In this document: positions 1 to 6,676 of the stretch, one piece after another
How the letters are laid out: each line of letters opens with the position of its first letter
How positions within the stretch are numbered: position 1 is the stretch's first letter
Source: Candidatus Gastranaerophilales bacterium
Lineage (GTDB): Bacteria; Cyanobacteriota; Vampirovibrionia; Gastranaerophilales; Gastranaerophilaceae
Reading direction: 5' to 3'
DNA: 64,000 nucleotides
Assembly (NCBI GenBank): GCA_944326475.1
Contig: CALVEC010000002.1
Span: 1 to 64,000, forward strand
Made by a program: the position numbers and the translations under genes
Notes under the pieces: generated by a model
What the model was told of the DNA's origin: nothing
The model's input: the letters and a program-made list of their open reading frames with translations, nothing else
Database searches by the model: none

Positions 1-288
1 TAACTGATAGGGTTGTCTTTGATTTTGTCAATCAATTCCTGCAGCTCAGGAGGGATGTTGCTATCGCCGCCTTCTTCACCGACCGCCTCAGTTGTATAAC
101 TGATAGGGTTGTCTTTGATTTTGTCAATCAATTCCTGCAGCTCAGGAGGGATGTTGCTATCGCCGCCTTCTTCGCCGACCGCCAGAGTTGTATACTTTGG
201 AGGGTTATCTTTGAGTTTGTCAAGAAGTTCGCGCAGTTCAGGAGGTATGTTGCTATCGCCGCCTTCAACAACGGTATCAGTTGGTCTG
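1..288. repeat. 96-bp in-frame tandem repeat, three visible copies
   Basis: Copies start at 1, 97 and 193. The first two are nearly identical; the third (5' in the gene) is diverged. The period is exactly 32 codons, so the reading frame is kept. The array continues beyond the window edge, so the copy number is unknown. Confidence 0.95.
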
Positions 289-620
289 TTTTTTAAGACC
301 AACTCGTCAGTATTTTCTCTTTGATTATTGTTGTTTGTTTCTCTAAGATACGTTGTGTCATAATCGATAAAAGTACTTTCTCTTTCAGCTTCTTTTATCA
401 AGTTGAGCAATTCCCGGTTGTTGGTATCCCCGTATAGTTTTTTTAGAGCATCCAAATCAATATCTTCAATATTAACATTTGAATTACCGAGCTGATGTAC
501 TGCAGCCATTATTTCTTCTGTTGAGGGGATATTTGTTCCATTTGTGCCGGAATCATTTCCGGTGTTGAATTGTTTCAACAATTCCATTAATTTTGTTTTA
601 ATCTGACCTATTTCTGCCAT
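1..620 (-). CDS. Tandem-repeat graspetide-like precursor peptide (partial, 3' end missing)
   Basis: Open frame from ATG at 618-620 running off the left edge with no stop (206 complete codons). An AGGTTGG-type ribosome-binding site lies just upstream. Residues 1 to about 110 form a leader-like, Asn/Glu/Leu-rich region with short helical stretches. After that come 32-residue (96-bp) repeats: a spacer GGDSNIPPELQELIDKIKDN followed by a core TTLAVGEE (residues 144-151) or TTEAVGEE (176-183). A degenerate first core reads TDTVVE. TTxxxxEE is the known core motif of plesiocin-type graspetides, in which an ATP-grasp ligase links Thr hydroxyls to Glu side chains. A divergent ATP-grasp gene begins 123 bp away. 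I infer a multi-core precursor; a repeat-rich structural or surface protein is the alternative. There is no signal peptide. Confidence 0.75.
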   Translation of the reverse strand, partial: MAEIGQIKTKLMELLKQFNTGNDSGTNGTNIPSTEEIMAAVHQLGNSNVNIEDIDLDALKKLYGDTNNRELLNLIKEAERESTFIDYDTTYLRETNNNNQRENTDELVLKNRPTDTVVEGGDSNIPPELRELLDKLKDNPPKYTTLAVGEEGGDSNIPPELQELIDKIKDNPISYTTEAVGEEGGDSNIPPELQELIDKIKDNPIS

Positions 621-743
621 GGTTCACCAACCTTTCTGTTTTTGTATACGGCAATTTCTGAAAAAGTCTTTAGGTTTTTTTAATGTAAACTTTACAATAA
701 TTTACAATATGTGAGATAATAAATAAAAATATAGAGGTGCAGC

Positions 744-1652
744 ATGATTGTAATTATTGGCTCTAAAGAAGAAACCCATAGTTTATATATGTATGCCAAA
801 ATACGTAGTATGGGACATAGGGTTTGTCTTTTGGACAGTCGTAAATATCCTAAAAATATTTCTATTGACTGGTCTCCCACTGAGAACAAAGCAAAATTTA
901 AAATCGGAGATGACAGCTTTTCCGGTGATGACATAGAGGGTATTTATTGGCGCTGGTATTATGGTATTCCATATGAAAAGGTTTCAAATTCTGACGATGC
1001 GGTTAATTCTATAATCTACAGAGAACGCACCTGTCTTATGTCCAGTGTATTGTGTTCGTTAGAAAGCAAGAGTTACAATTCTATTCAGGCGGTTGAGCTT
1101 CATCAGAAGAAGGCTTATCAGTCATTTTTGCTTGCCCAAAATAATATTCGCATACCAAAAACCATGATAACTAATTCACCTGAGGAATTTATCGATTTTT
1201 GCAAAAAATTTAATAAAAATGTTATATACAAACCTGTAAGAGGCGGTGCATATACCAAAAAAGTTTCAGGTGAAGATTTTACACTTGAAAAACTTCAAAG
1301 GCTTGAGAAAGTTCCGATTCAACTGCAAGAATTTATTCAAGGTGTGGATATAAGAGTTTTTGCGTTTGAGAGCGGGGAGATTTTTCCTGCCAAAATTGCC
1401 GCGAAATCAGTGGATTTCCGTGAAGATACCTCGGCTAAAATAGAGCCGGTTATACTGCCTGACAAAGTTTGCGAGGATTGTATAAAAATTCTGAAACTGT
1501 TTGGGCTGAAATATTCAGGAATAGATATAAGGCTTACTCCGGAGGGTGAATATGTCTTTATTGAAGCAAATCCGGCGCCAATGTTTATTCATTTTGAAAA
1601 CGTAACCGGATTCCCCATATCAGATACGCTTATTTCAAAATTAAAAGCTTAA
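744..1652 (+). CDS. ATP-grasp ligase, RimK-like, candidate graspetide macrocyclase
   Basis: 302 aa, ATG with GAGGTG upstream. The N-terminal pre-ATP-grasp region has a WRWYYG segment (69-74). The ATP-grasp core shows KPVRGG (163-168), the QEFIQG linker (195-200), DIR (202-204, 261-263) and the metal-binding IEANPAP motif (273-279). The C-terminus has an FENVTGFPISD stretch, which resembles the tail of RiPP-maturing ATP-grasp enzymes (MvdC/MvdD/PsnB type) more than that of ribosomal-protein glutamate ligases. Known family members use ATP to form ester or amide bonds between side chains of a precursor peptide. The divergent neighbour with TTxxxxEE cores makes it the likely substrate. A general RimK-type ligase remains possible. 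Confidence 0.8.
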   Translation: MIVIIGSKEETHSLYMYAKIRSMGHRVCLLDSRKYPKNISIDWSPTENKAKFKIGDDSFSGDDIEGIYWRWYYGIPYEKVSNSDDAVNSIIYRERTCLMSSVLCSLESKSYNSIQAVELHQKKAYQSFLLAQNNIRIPKTMITNSPEEFIDFCKKFNKNVIYKPVRGGAYTKKVSGEDFTLEKLQRLEKVPIQLQEFIQGVDIRVFAFESGEIFPAKIAAKSVDFREDTSAKIEPVILPDKVCEDCIKILKLFGLKYSGIDIRLTPEGEYVFIEANPAPMFIHFENVTGFPISDTLISKLKA

Positions 1653-1969
1653 AACAGGCATCTAAGGCTGACTCTTTTTCTGCATTTGTGTGTTTGTAAA
1701 CAAATGTTAAATTAAATTTATCATGGTAAATCATGATTATTATTGATTATGCGTATTTTGTACAATTATTAAATCAAAAAATTACCCGCTTTGCACTTCA
1801 CAAGACCAAAGTTATCTGATTAAATAGAAATATAGGGTTGTTTTGATAAAAATTAATTAAAAAATAAAGATTAGATTAGGGAGGAGATTTGGGAAAAACC
1901 AAATCAGAGCTGAATAAATCAGCTCTTTTTTATTGGTTTTAATTGGCTTGTATACACTTAATTTTAAAT
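1653..1969. other. 317-bp intergenic region
   Basis: AT-rich and without a convincing ORF. It lies between the ATP-grasp gene and the convergent TolC-like gene. The only structure seen is the pair of hairpins at 1886-1930. Confidence 0.6.
1886..1930 (+). terminator. Double hairpin ending in a T tract
   Basis: Hairpin 1 pairs GATTTGG (1886-1892) with CCAAATC (1899-1905). Hairpin 2 pairs AGAGCTGA (1906-1913) with TCAGCTCT (1919-1926) and is followed by TTTT, a rho-independent terminator on the plus strand. It may end the ATP-grasp transcript or a short RNA starting near the GGGAGGAG at 1879. Confidence 0.75.
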
Positions 1970-3376
1970 TTATAATTTGCTGCCCGCTGCTTTGTACAAA
2001 CCGATTGAATCAACCATGCATTCAACTTTTTGCTGGGCAACTAGTTTATCAATAGAGAGAAGATTTTCTCTGAATTGTATTAAATCAAGCTGGGAGATTG
2101 TTCCTTGTTCATATTTAAGTGTGTTGTAACGGTAGTCTTCTGATTCCAGTGCGAACTGTTTTAAAGTTCTTTCCATTTTTTCTTTATCCAGTTTAACTGA
2201 CATCAATGAGTCGTTAACTTCCTGTATTGCTGTCAAATTAGTCTGGTAATAGTTATGCAGGATTCTTTCATATTGCGCTTTTTTAAGTCTGAGATTTGCA
2301 AATCTGCGTCCGCCTGTAAAAAGCGGTGCCATAATGCTTCCACCCAGCATTGTCAGCATATCTCTTGTCGTGAACAGACTGCCAAAATCGGCTGTGTTAA
2401 AAAGCGCAAGTCCCAAAATATTTATACTCGGCAAAAATTCTTTTCTTGCAACTCTGACGTCAATACCTGCTTTTTCAACCATTTTTTCCGCTTTTAAGTA
2501 ATCAGGTCGTGCCATAATGACCTCTGATGAAATTTCTGAAGGAACCCGACTGTTTAATGCAAGATTATCAAGAGATGTTCTTTGAAGTGAAGCTGAATTT
2601 GCGGGGCTTTCTCCAATCAATACGGCAAGCTGGTTTAAAGCTTTTTCTCTTTGTTTTTTAAGTTCTATAAGTTCTGTTTCTCCGCTGACAAGGGATTTAT
2701 TTGCTTTTATAGTGTCTGATGTGGAGGTCAGACCTTCGCGGTTGCGTTTCAGCATTAAATCGTATATTTTTTCTCTTGATTGTACAATTTCTTCCTGCAG
2801 CTCAATCATTTTGTCCAGTTTTACTACATTAAAATATGTAGTGCCTACGGCAGAAACGACCGCAATGTAAGCGGCGCGTTCATCAAATTGTGATGCTTCG
2901 TACGATTTTTTTACTGATTTTGTTTTGTCTCTGTTTTTTAGAAACAGGTCGACTTCATAGCTTGCAAATACAGGCATTGCAAATACCCAGTCTGAGGAGG
3001 TTGTTCCGGGCATTTTTAAGTAGTTGGGCGCAAAACCGGCTCCGATTTGAGGGAGTTGTGCAGAAAACTGGGCTTTGACATTCTGATAATATTCTTCAAC
3101 AGCGAGTGTAGCAGCTTTTAGGTCATGGTTATTTTGTACTGCTCTTGAAATGTATTCATTCAGTATGGGGTCGTTAAAGTTTTCCCACCACTCCACATTT
3201 AAGTATTCAAATTTATTCTCTTGAGAATGTTTTTTTTCTTTTTTGCTTTTTGACGCATAACTTTTAAACTGCTTGGGCTGTGCATCTGATTTTGATGAAT
3301 CTGCGGCAAATGCCAAAGGAGTGAGCATGCTTGTTTGCATACAAGTTATTAATGCTAATATAACAACCTTTTTCAA
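1970..3376 (-). CDS. TolC/NodT-family outer-membrane efflux protein
   Basis: 468 aa. Starts at TTG (3374-3376), supported by a GAGGG site 8 nt upstream and by the signal peptide (KKVVILALITC...AFA) that begins exactly there. The mature part has the typical FNDPILNEYI opening and two long alpha-helical repeats of the outer-membrane efflux family, with VPSEISSEVIMARPDYLKAE marking the second half. No lipobox Cys is visible, unlike many NodT lipoproteins. It should form the outer-membrane channel for the HlyD/MFS pair encoded divergently at 4022-6676. The intergenic region holds a palindromic operator candidate. Confidence 0.9.
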   Translation of the reverse strand: MKKVVILALITCMQTSMLTPLAFAADSSKSDAQPKQFKSYASKSKKEKKHSQENKFEYLNVEWWENFNDPILNEYISRAVQNNHDLKAATLAVEEYYQNVKAQFSAQLPQIGAGFAPNYLKMPGTTSSDWVFAMPVFASYEVDLFLKNRDKTKSVKKSYEASQFDERAAYIAVVSAVGTTYFNVVKLDKMIELQEEIVQSREKIYDLMLKRNREGLTSTSDTIKANKSLVSGETELIELKKQREKALNQLAVLIGESPANSASLQRTSLDNLALNSRVPSEISSEVIMARPDYLKAEKMVEKAGIDVRVARKEFLPSINILGLALFNTADFGSLFTTRDMLTMLGGSIMAPLFTGGRRFANLRLKKAQYERILHNYYQTNLTAIQEVNDSLMSVKLDKEKMERTLKQFALESEDYRYNTLKYEQGTISQLDLIQFRENLLSIDKLVAQQKVECMVDSIGLYKAAGSKL

Positions 3377-3439
3377 TTTCTTTCCCTCTGCTTCTTTTTC
3401 TTATACTTGCAATTTTTATGTTCGTATGTTAGCATAACT

Positions 3440-3473
3440 ATGTTGCAAATGCAACATGTGTTTTTTGCAACAT
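3440..3473. promoter_or_regulatory. Palindromic operator candidate between tolC-like and marR genes
   Basis: A perfect 18-bp inverted repeat, ATGTTGCA-AA-TGCAACAT, sits at 3440-3457, with a further half-site TTGCAACAT at 3465-3473. It lies in the divergent promoter region next to a MarR-family gene, the usual position of an autoregulatory MarR site. Binding is inferred. Confidence 0.6.
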
Positions 3474-3522
3474 ATATTAAGAACTACAAAACATGTTAAC
3501 ACACAAAGGAAACAAAATCTAA

Positions 3523-3990
3523 ATGCCCGATAAAAAAATAAAACATTACACAGATACTTTGCACTATGACTTGGAGCTTACTGCAAAATACACTAAAACA
3601 CTCGGAATGCAGATATGTGAAAAATTTCACTCGGATGTGCCGCTTGATTGTATTGTTGCACTTGATACCATATCTTGTAATTCCGGAATCTGTCAGAGAG
3701 ATTTAGCAAAGCTTATTCTGAAAGACAGGGCAAATACCGGAAGGTTATTGGATTTGCTTGAAAAAACAGGTTATATTGAAAGATATAATGATACGAAAAA
3801 CAACAGACTTGTCAGAAAAATGGAAGTTACAGAGGAAGGTAAAAAATTTTTACAAAAAATAACAGATGAATTTATACCTATACAAGCAAATATAGACACT
3901 ATTATTACTCCTGATGAGGAAAAACTTGTACGGGATATATTAAAAAAACTCAGAGAAGGAATAGAAAATTTAATAGAAAAACAAATATAA
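3523..3990 (+). CDS. MarR-family transcriptional regulator
   Basis: 155 aa winged-helix regulator. The helix-turn-helix and wing are visible around ICQRDLAKLILKDRANTGRL and the basic wing DTKNNRLVRKMEVTEEGKKF. It starts the operon marR-hlyD-MFS and is divergent from the TolC-like gene. MarR proteins generally repress adjacent efflux genes and release on ligand binding; here that role is inferred from position and the inverted repeats upstream. Confidence 0.9.
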   Translation: MPDKKIKHYTDTLHYDLELTAKYTKTLGMQICEKFHSDVPLDCIVALDTISCNSGICQRDLAKLILKDRANTGRLLDLLEKTGYIERYNDTKNNRLVRKMEVTEEGKKFLQKITDEFIPIQANIDTIITPDEEKLVRDILKKLREGIENLIEKQI

Positions 3991-4021
3991 TGTATTGAAC
4001 GGCTAATTATGAGGTTAAGAG

Positions 4022-5023
4022 ATGAGCGATAACGAAACAATTGAACAAACACCGGAACAACAGGAAGAAAAACACAGACCTTTTAAAAGATATATAGCTG
4101 CGGCGGTTGGGCTTGTAGTAGCAATAGTTGCAGGATTTGTGATACATGATGCAATACACTACCAGACAACTGATGATGCTTATGTTGAAACTACGACAGT
4201 ACAGGTTTCACCTAAAATTTCGGGTCAGGTTGTTGATGTTTATATAAAAGACAACCAGCATGTCAAAGAAGGGCAGCTTGTTGCAAAAATAGATCCGGCT
4301 GACTATGAGGTAAAACTTGCGCAAGCTCAGGCAAATTATGACAGGGCGCTTTTGAATCAAAAAAATGCAAAAGCTGTGTATGAAGCGTCTAAAACTCAAA
4401 TAGACGTTGCTCATAAGGATTTGATAAGATATCAAAATCTCTACGAAGAAGGCGCTGTTTCAAAACAGACACTTGATGCAGCACAGGCTAAATATGATTC
4501 TGCGCAGGCGCAGTTAACACAGTCGGAACAGGCTTTGCTTTCTTCAAACAGTTCTAAAGTTGCTGATGCTGAAATAAAAGCCCTGAAAGCACTAAGAGAC
4601 CAAGCAAAGCTTAATCTGTCTTACACAAACGTATATGCACCGCAAGACGGTACTGTTTCAAGCAGGAGAGTTGAAAAAGGTATGTATGTGCAAACAGGTT
4701 CGCCTTTGTTTACGCTTGTTCCTGAGGAGGTATGGGTTGTTGCAAACTACAAAGAAAACCAGCTCCGTCACATGAAACCCGGTCAGCCTGTCGATATAAA
4801 AGTTGATACATACCCGGATAAAGTATTTAAGGGTGAAATTGACAGTATTCAAAGAAGCTCCGGTGCAAAATCCAGCTTGTTCCCGCCTGAGAATGCTGTT
4901 GGTTCATTCGTTAAAATTGTCCAAAGAATCCCTGTTAAAATTGTATTTACAGAAAAAATAGATACTGACAAATACTCGATTGTGCCGGGTATGTCAGTTG
5001 TGCCAAAAGTCAAAGTAAAATAA
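4022..5023 (+). CDS. HlyD/EmrA-type membrane fusion protein
   Basis: 333 aa with GAGG 5' of the ATG. There is a cytoplasmic Glu-rich N-terminus, one membrane segment at about 27-47, then a biotinyl-lipoyl-like half (QVSPKISGQVVDVYIKDNQH), an alpha-helical hairpin (about 95-190) and a beta-barrel. This order is that of EmrA-type periplasmic adaptors, which join an MFS pump to a TolC channel. It sits 31 bp downstream of the MarR gene and upstream of the MFS gene. Confidence 0.9.
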   Translation: MSDNETIEQTPEQQEEKHRPFKRYIAAAVGLVVAIVAGFVIHDAIHYQTTDDAYVETTTVQVSPKISGQVVDVYIKDNQHVKEGQLVAKIDPADYEVKLAQAQANYDRALLNQKNAKAVYEASKTQIDVAHKDLIRYQNLYEEGAVSKQTLDAAQAKYDSAQAQLTQSEQALLSSNSSKVADAEIKALKALRDQAKLNLSYTNVYAPQDGTVSSRRVEKGMYVQTGSPLFTLVPEEVWVVANYKENQLRHMKPGQPVDIKVDTYPDKVFKGEIDSIQRSSGAKSSLFPPENAVGSFVKIVQRIPVKIVFTEKIDTDKYSIVPGMSVVPKVKVK

Positions 5024-5045
5024 AATAACCCTATCTTAACATTCA

Positions 5046-5085
5046 GCACCCTTTCTGACTACGTGAAGGGAGGGTGCCTTTTTTT
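5046..5085 (+). terminator. Terminator-like hairpin between the adaptor and MFS genes
   Basis: GCACCCTTTC (5046-5055) pairs with GAA/GGG/AGGGTGC (to 5077), followed by a run of T to 5085. It lies inside an operon-like gene pair, so it may attenuate pump expression relative to the adaptor. Confidence 0.7.
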
Positions 5086-5098
5086 AGAGAATCTGTTT

Positions 5099-6676
5099 AT
5101 GAACAACGATATTATATCACAAGATGAATGGAAACCGTCTCGCAATCCCTGGATTATCACTGCGGCAATACTTTTGCCGGTAATCATATTTGCTATAGAC
5201 GGAACTATTGCAAACGTTGCACTTCCTCATATGGCGGGGAGTTTTTCCGCAAGTCATGATGAATCAACGTGGATTTTGACGAGCTATCTTATTGCGAGCG
5301 GTATTATAATTCCGATGGTCGATTGGTTTAGCCGTGTATTGGGAAGAAAAAACTTTTTAATAATCAGTGTTGTGATTTTTACTTTGGCGTCAATGCTTTG
5401 CGGTATGGCGCATTCTCTCGGGCAGATGGTTATATTCCGCATACTGCAAGGTGTTGGCGGCGGAGGTATAATACCGATTGCGCAGGCGGTTTTGCTTGAG
5501 AGCTTCCCAAAAGAAAAACGACCTGCAGCAATGGCAATGTTTGCGCTAGGTGTTTTGCTTGCACCTATAATCGGACCGGTGCTGGGCGGTTGGATAACAG
5601 ACAACTGGACATGGCCTTGGATTTTCTTTATAAACGTACCGTTTGGCGTTATTGCCGTATTTATTTGTAATGCAGTGCTTGAAGATCCGCCTTATGCACG
5701 TAAGCAAAAGAACGTCAAAACTGATGGTATCGGTTTTTTCTTTCTTGTTGTCTGGCTTGTGACGCTGCAAATTGTACTTGATAAAGGTAACAACTCTGAC
5801 TGGTTTAATGCAACTTGGGTTTGCTGGACATCTGCAGTATCGGTAGTTGCTTGTATCGCATTTTTTATATCCCAGCTGAAAAATAAAGAATCCCTAATAG
5901 ACCTTTCTGTTTTTAAAGACAAAAACTTTTTGAACGGTACTATTATACTCGTTGTAATAAACCTTATACTTTATGCTGCTCTTGCTATTTTACCGCAGTT
6001 TTTACAGGTTATGCTCGGGTATACTGCATTTTTAAGCGGTTTTTCAATGATGCCGCGCGGCATGGGGTGCATGGTGTCAGTAATTATATGTGCTGCCATT
6101 GCAGATAAAATAGACAACAGGATGCTTGTAGCGATAGGTTTGTTCTTTATCGGTTTAGGCGGGTTTGTATTCGGAAACCTTAATTTACAGATATCTACGG
6201 TAAATATTATAATCCCTAATATTTTTTACGGTCTTGGTATGGGATTTGCAATGATACCGCTTATAACGCTTTCAAACAACACTTTGCACAACGCACAGCT
6301 TACAAACGCCAGCGGTGTACAAAATTTGTTGAAAAATATAGGTTCTGCTGTCGGAACTTCGTTTGTTGCAACTTCAATATCCCGTTTTTCTCAAATTCAT
6401 CAACACTACCTTGTGGATAATTTGACAGAGTTGAATCCTGTTTTTACGGATAAACTCGAGACTCTTGCGGCTGCTCTTTCTCAATATGCCCACCCTTCCG
6501 TGGCGCATTATATGGCACAAAGTACTCTATATCAGCAAATGGTACAGCAGGCTCACCTTCTTGCTTACATGGATTCGTTTCGGATTTTCGGGATACTTGC
6601 AATTATTGTAATACCGCTGCTGTTTTTTATTGACAGCAATATAGAAAAACCTAAAAACAAAAAGACCGGAATTTAA
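5099..6676 (+). CDS. DHA2-family MFS multidrug transporter (EmrB/QacA type)
   Basis: I take ATG 5099, giving 525 aa. The in-frame GTG at 5063 falls within the terminator stem and would add an unlikely 12-residue leader. About 14 hydrophobic segments are visible. Motifs include DGTIANVALPHMAGSF in TM1, the motif A-like loop SRVLGRKN, and the motif C-like LGVLLAPIIGPVLGGWI. The family exports drugs or small molecules by proton antiport and pairs with EmrA and TolC. The operon context agrees. Confidence 0.92.
   Translation: MNNDIISQDEWKPSRNPWIITAAILLPVIIFAIDGTIANVALPHMAGSFSASHDESTWILTSYLIASGIIIPMVDWFSRVLGRKNFLIISVVIFTLASMLCGMAHSLGQMVIFRILQGVGGGGIIPIAQAVLLESFPKEKRPAAMAMFALGVLLAPIIGPVLGGWITDNWTWPWIFFINVPFGVIAVFICNAVLEDPPYARKQKNVKTDGIGFFFLVVWLVTLQIVLDKGNNSDWFNATWVCWTSAVSVVACIAFFISQLKNKESLIDLSVFKDKNFLNGTIILVVINLILYAALAILPQFLQVMLGYTAFLSGFSMMPRGMGCMVSVIICAAIADKIDNRMLVAIGLFFIGLGGFVFGNLNLQISTVNIIIPNIFYGLGMGFAMIPLITLSNNTLHNAQLTNASGVQNLLKNIGSAVGTSFVATSISRFSQIHQHYLVDNLTELNPVFTDKLETLAAALSQYAHPSVAHYMAQSTLYQQMVQQAHLLAYMDSFRIFGILAIIVIPLLFFIDSNIEKPKNKKTGI

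Follow-up and report, generated by a model that had tools for sequence, protein, structure and literature searches.

We find that the two divergent genes at the start of the window (the whole 64,000-nucleotide stretch analysed here, namely the opening 64 kb of contig C2; the genome comprises 2.14 Mb in 35 contigs and is 98.65% complete) very probably form a two-gene plesiocin-type graspetide unit (Table 1). The plesiocin core is TTxxxxEE. A graspetide locus had been proposed here by a sequence-only reading, and that interpretation stands on three results: the ligase is PsnB-like, profile models favour graspetide maturases over RimK, and precursors with TTxAxGEEGG cores are paired with the ligase in relatives.

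Table 1. Features of the precursor-ligase locus (window coordinates)
Feature	Position	Strand	Basis
Graspetide precursor, N-terminal 206 aa, cut off before its 3′ end	3..620	-	open frame from ATG at 620; contig end
Leader region, residues 1-119, ending ..TDTVVE ahead of the first GGDSN unit	264..620	-	sequence
Candidate ligase-recognition motif STFIDYD, residues 82-88	357..377	-	F[VIL][DNKSE][FYD]
Repeat unit 1, GGDSN-IPPELRELLDKLKDNPPKY-TTLAVGEE	168..263	-	tandem repeat analysis
Core 1 TTLAVGEE, residues 144-151	168..191	-	core pattern
Repeat unit 2, GGDSN-IPPELQELIDKIKDNPISY-TTEAVGEE	72..167	-	tandem repeat analysis
Core 2 TTEAVGEE, residues 176-183	72..95	-	core pattern
Partial repeat unit 3	3..71	-	same as unit 2 over visible bases
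Divergent intergenic region between precursor and ligase	621..743	.	between the two genes
Graspetide synthetase, PsnB-like ATP-grasp ligase, 302 aa	744..1652	+	profiles, sequence, fold, tree

The repeat precursor and its probable 3′ end

The minus-strand gene had been described as a leader-like region followed by 32-residue repeats, and both the open frame and a period-96 tandem repeat bear this out (positions 1-266, 2.8 copies, 90% match, score 413, Tandem Repeats Finder). The 96-bp unit encodes 32 residues with the consensus GGDSN-IPPEL(R/Q)EL(L/I)DK(L/I)KDNP(P/I)(K/S)Y-TT(L/E)AVGEE. Two units and 23 residues of a third are present; both core types first noticed in the repeats were recovered, with only two complete cores lying inside the window. 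As base 1 of the window is the end of contig C2, the frame is truncated, and we are looking at a gene interrupted at the contig end rather than at a short gene. The third unit is identical in DNA to unit 2 over all 71 visible bases, which accounts for the assembly break at this end, while 11 codons are changed between units 1 and 2, with 5 of the changes silent. Between the two genes, a promoter-like site for the ligase (691-720, TTTACA-18-GATAAT) was seen, although such sites are not more numerous than in shuffled sequence. An Rfam scan of window positions 1-6000 gave no match.

The only other precursor-like sequence in the genome sits at the very end of contig C20, in an orientation that matches C2. 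There, two 32-residue units (LSVQQFIEMIQNYQSTTTKAIGEEGGGDTNTN) carrying the core TTKAIGEE twice are followed by a stop, the units terminating in TTTKAIGEEGGA-stop. Because unit length, the helix-then-core order and GEEGG are shared, the C20 end probably carries the 3′ end of the window precursor gene. Completion of the precursor from another contig, as had been envisaged, thus yielded a candidate 3′ end; the C20 and C2 ends show no overlap when compared, and the join between them is unproven. In three congeneric species a YccA-like gene flanks miaB, and in two of them a hydrolase gene flanks tolC. These ancestral neighbours are located inside other contigs (C31 and C11) of the host genome, so both old junctions are broken in it. 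The broken junctions would fit a new tolC-graspetide-miaB junction, which is not proof that C2 and C20 join.

Distribution of the pair, its cores and its leader motif

At a threshold of E<=1e-40, the ligase was found in 22 of the 383 genomes of the order. None of the other three species in the genus has the C2-type copy, so the distribution is patchy. The named nearest relatives outside the host's own group are all Cyanobacteriota, and six cyanobacterial loci also have TTxAxGEEGG or related cores. At most ligase loci a core-bearing ORF adjoins the ligase, usually divergently; the repeats anticipated in relatives are therefore present, with TTxAxGEEGG cores beside most homologous ligases. A recognisable precursor is missing near the ligase at three loci (G088, G094 and G307), in two of which the ligase sits near the end of its contig; at G121 all that is seen is a fragment at a contig end, bearing TTMASPEYGG.

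Performing an all-against-all comparison of the neighbours at 24 loci, we find that the only widely recurring families are the ligase and the repeat precursor, and that the pairs have no conserved protease or transporter gene nearby. This bears on the TolC-like, MarR-like, EmrA-like and EmrB-like genes that adjoin the graspetide unit at window positions 1970-6676. Their place directly beside the ligase, and the co-occurrence of drug-efflux transporters with some graspetide groups (PMC13097080), would suit a dedicated exporter within a cluster of more than two genes. Such a role is nonetheless very unlikely, since the synteny is kept in congeners lacking the C2-type ligase (in three of them, synteny at about 80% extends over window 1693-5200, with other genes beyond tolC) and no transporter recurs at the other loci. 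On these two grounds we rejected EmrAB-TolC as part of the unit; judged by synteny, it predates the pair.

Among the 65 cores, 61-64 have T at positions 1 and 2, 63 have A or S at position 4 and 59 have G at position 6. EEGG is invariant (65/65), which is partly built in because the search pattern preset positions 7-10 (acidic residues at 7-8; G, E or A at 9-10), and the permitted D, E or A alternatives were never seen. Precursors hold from one core, in proteins of 58-72 aa, to 13 (the complete G167 precursor, L100:4922-6286, 454 aa; G268, 409 aa), with 7-13 cores in those of 374-549 aa. The natural single-core precursors of 58-72 aa mark the core as the unit. The spacer between cores had been called unusually long at 24 residues: the length is correct, and it is not unique, as spacers in relatives range from 3 to 255 residues and are 25-28 in most helix-type precursors. 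G167, G268 and G214 have 25-28-residue spacers with an amphipathic helix (e.g. DDATKKKIQEWIDKFK), which is also the window's layout. For single spacers, hydrophobic-moment tests gave p values of 0.003-0.17, and the window spacer helix resembles those of relatives (p 0.002 against G047). We also considered the repeat helix as a copy of the leader helix, and found no support for this (best p 0.038, in one of three units only).

Of 31 precursors, 21 carry the leader motif F[VIL][DNKSE][FYD] ahead of their first core, where shuffled leaders would give 1.5; this count overstates the independent evidence because the motif was picked post hoc and several precursors are close kin. The motif reads TFIDY in the window, TFVDY or TFVNF in one genus, SFVDF, PFVKF or TFINF in another, PFIKF in G096 and YFLDY at a second locus of the host genome (on contig C4, below), while TFIRF of G044 does not fit the pattern as defined. 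The cyanobacterial leaders all lack the motif and carry PF(A/G)LD or PFDL and a double glycine. In its shorter form, F[VIL]x[FY], the window-family motif is similar to Phhx(1,2)h, which is known from graspetide leaders and has been compared with microviridin PFFARFL (PMC8939145).

Contig C4 carries a second graspetide-like pair (precursor L048:5118-5642:+, ligase L048:4044-4970:-), which is kept in each of the four species examined within the genus. Its precursor has 3-4 cores of the form T[LKM]A[YF]PSDDA, similar to microviridin/marinostatin TxKYPSD with Lys replaced by Ala, and scores 22.8 bits against NF033738 (cut-off 26). The C4 ligase is 38% identical to the window ligase.

A PsnB-like ligase

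The 302-aa product contains both KPVRGG and NPAPMFIHFENVTGFPISD, the two marks by which it had been read as an ATP-grasp enzyme. Comparison with graspetide-ligase HMMs came out as that reading expected: MvdC/MvdD/SAV_5884-type maturase models score 98 bits and RimK 76 bits. The match to TIGR04185/04184/04187 is full length at 98 bits, below the curated cut-offs of 350-475, and that to the RimK family model (75.6 bits) is under its cut-off of 143.4. The best solved relative by sequence is PsnB, the plesiocin synthetase (E 2.4e-38, 29% identity). The predicted structure (pLDDT 94, pTM 0.89) has its best PDB fold match in 7drm (5.5e-27), which is PsnB (PMC10452190), the best RimK match being 7.5e-16. 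Consistent with this, all 16 positions that are invariant among 23 homologues are the same in PsnB, including K163, R204, D224, R226, D261, E274 and N276.

A maximum-likelihood tree of 31 ligases took E. coli RimK as outgroup, because the RimK candidate of the host genome proved to be a biotin carboxylase and was dropped. The Mdn/Cdn enzymes form a separate clade (100/100), and PsnB falls among the relatives of the window ligase (85/94). By the AU test, grouping of PsnB with the Mdn enzymes is not rejected (p 0.21) and that of the window ligase with RimK is borderline rejected (p 0.059); from these sequences, the deep placements appear not firmly settled. Sequence, fold and profiles place the ligase nearer to PsnB and the maturases than to RimK, and the tree by itself leaves some RimK placements standing. 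A RimK-type glutamate/amino-acid ligase whose substrate is the repeat protein or something unrelated, to which that AU value, the 76-bit RimK match and the common ATP-grasp fold could point, is extremely improbable, as the score is under the 143-bit cut-off and under the maturase models, PsnB and MdnC stand far above RimK by fold and sequence, and the ligase is tightly paired with TTxxxxEE repeats.

Plasmid and phage collections hold only distant ligases (22-31% identity). One homologue (24% identity) is at MT835913.1:8833-9771 of the phage collection, in a 16-kb record named "Bacteriophage sp." from human faeces.

Predicted chemistry, product fate and known graspetides

By analogy with characterised graspetides, the ligase would dock on the precursor leader, probably at TFIDY, and would spend ATP to phosphorylate a Glu of each TTxAxGEE core. 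A Thr hydroxyl would then attack, giving two nested Thr-Glu omega-esters per core (minus 36 Da); both the acyl-phosphate chemistry and the connectivity are borrowed from those systems. In graspetide synthetases, ATP phosphorylates the carboxylate and the donor hydroxyl or amine is guided to the acyl phosphate (PMC13097080). Since most cores offer no donors other than TT and no acceptors other than EE, each TTxxxxEE is predicted to gain two Thr-Glu esters. Modification of core after core along the chain would produce bicyclic hairpins strung together, with short amphipathic helices between them. Plesiocin hairpins have been described (PMC13097080), and PsnB and AMdnC are distributive on several cores (PMC5934393). 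Multi-core chains are modified better when given an engineered second leader (PMC13003496), and by this analogy the spacer helix might act as a recognition element. Helical spacing may also simply keep the hairpins apart.

For the fate of the product, we regard it as quite possible, though short of probable, that the chain is cut between units and that the helix-plus-hairpin peptides inhibit serine proteases, like plesiocin and microviridin. Characterised microviridins and plesiocin have this activity, and plesiocin potency grows with hairpin number (PMC13097080). The invariant GG after every core suggests double-glycine cleavage; the window leader likewise has ..VVEGG ahead of unit 1, and cyanobacterial relatives carry a short GG-type leader. 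Against cutting, the host genome, at 98.65% completeness, has no match to Peptidase_C39 (PF03412), which 8 of 14 controls do match; a conserved protease or transporter is absent near the pairs at the 24 loci; and GG may serve ligation instead.

That the protein stays uncut, its esters stiffening a large repeat protein of structural or surface use with helices as spacers, seems rather unlikely. This would agree with the lack of a C39 peptidase, with precursors of 374-549 aa and 7-13 cores, with cores that lie among non-repeat domains at distances of up to 255 residues, and with helical linkers conserved across genera; corallotide, of about 22 kDa, is a known multi-repeat graspetide (PMC13097080). 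It fits poorly with the single-core precursors of 58-72 aa in relatives, which resemble ordinary peptides, and an export signal is not obvious on inspection by eye. Still less likely is the specific form in which an uncut, ester-stapled helix-hairpin repeat protein uses the pre-core helix as an internal ligase recognition element; if true, it would be a graspetide serving as a structural or surface protein.

Among known systems, plesiocin/PsnB of Plesiocystis pacifica (7DRM-7DRP) is like the window pair in its TTxxxxEE-type core, several hairpin cores per precursor and one ATP-grasp ligase. In comparison, window-family cores end in an invariant GG, the window type has 24-residue helical spacers, and relatives have up to 13 cores against plesiocin's four repeats. 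Searching by sequence for PsnA2 or another solved precursor gave no match. Microviridin/marinostatin enzymes (MdnB, MdnC, AMdnC) share the ATP-grasp lactone chemistry, and AMdnC also acts on several cores in one precursor (PMC5934393), but these ligases form a separate, fully supported clade, and a TxKYPSD-type microviridin core is absent from the window locus. Long repeating precursors are reported for groups 34/35 which, like corallotide (group 15) and the window family, combine large precursors with repeated cross-link motifs; corallotide differs in its KxxxD isopeptides and an oxygenase (PMC13097080).

Graspetide precursors with multiple cores or long repeats thus have precedents in plesiocin, AMdnA, corallotide and groups 34/35. 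Novelty seems to lie in the presumed host lineage, in repeats that alternate helix and core with up to 13 cores, and in the series running from one core to 13, groups 34/35, which the family may match, being compared by description only. The papers searched describe no graspetides for this lineage, key plesiocin papers lying outside the search. With these findings, a non-photosynthetic, apparently gut-dwelling relative of cyanobacteria gains a plesiocin-type multi-core family whose members have helical spacers and as many as 13 cores, and this family is linked to shorter versions in cyanobacteria. Naturally occurring precursors that span 1 core (58 aa) to 13 cores (454 aa) and share a leader motif offer a test set for the action of one ligase on many cores and a test of whether large ester-cross-linked proteins exist in nature.

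Some precursors depart from the window layout. AYPSDS-type cores occur together with TSMAIGEEGG-type cores in one of them (L047:3308-3790:-), which may bridge the microviridin-like and plesiocin-like types. In precursors from other families within the class (L038:5073-6041:-, L039:2637-3875:+ and L040:1042-1818:-), cores are joined to sizeable non-repeat, apparently helical domains; Pfam searches with two of these three precursors found no match, and one of the three has an EF-hand-like stretch, GDGQLSQQEL. Two more (L102:2619-3779:- and L105:2800-3954:-) carry His/Trp-rich (HHWGHHHWGHH) and CDKPSWGKPD repeats between their cores, possibly for metal binding.
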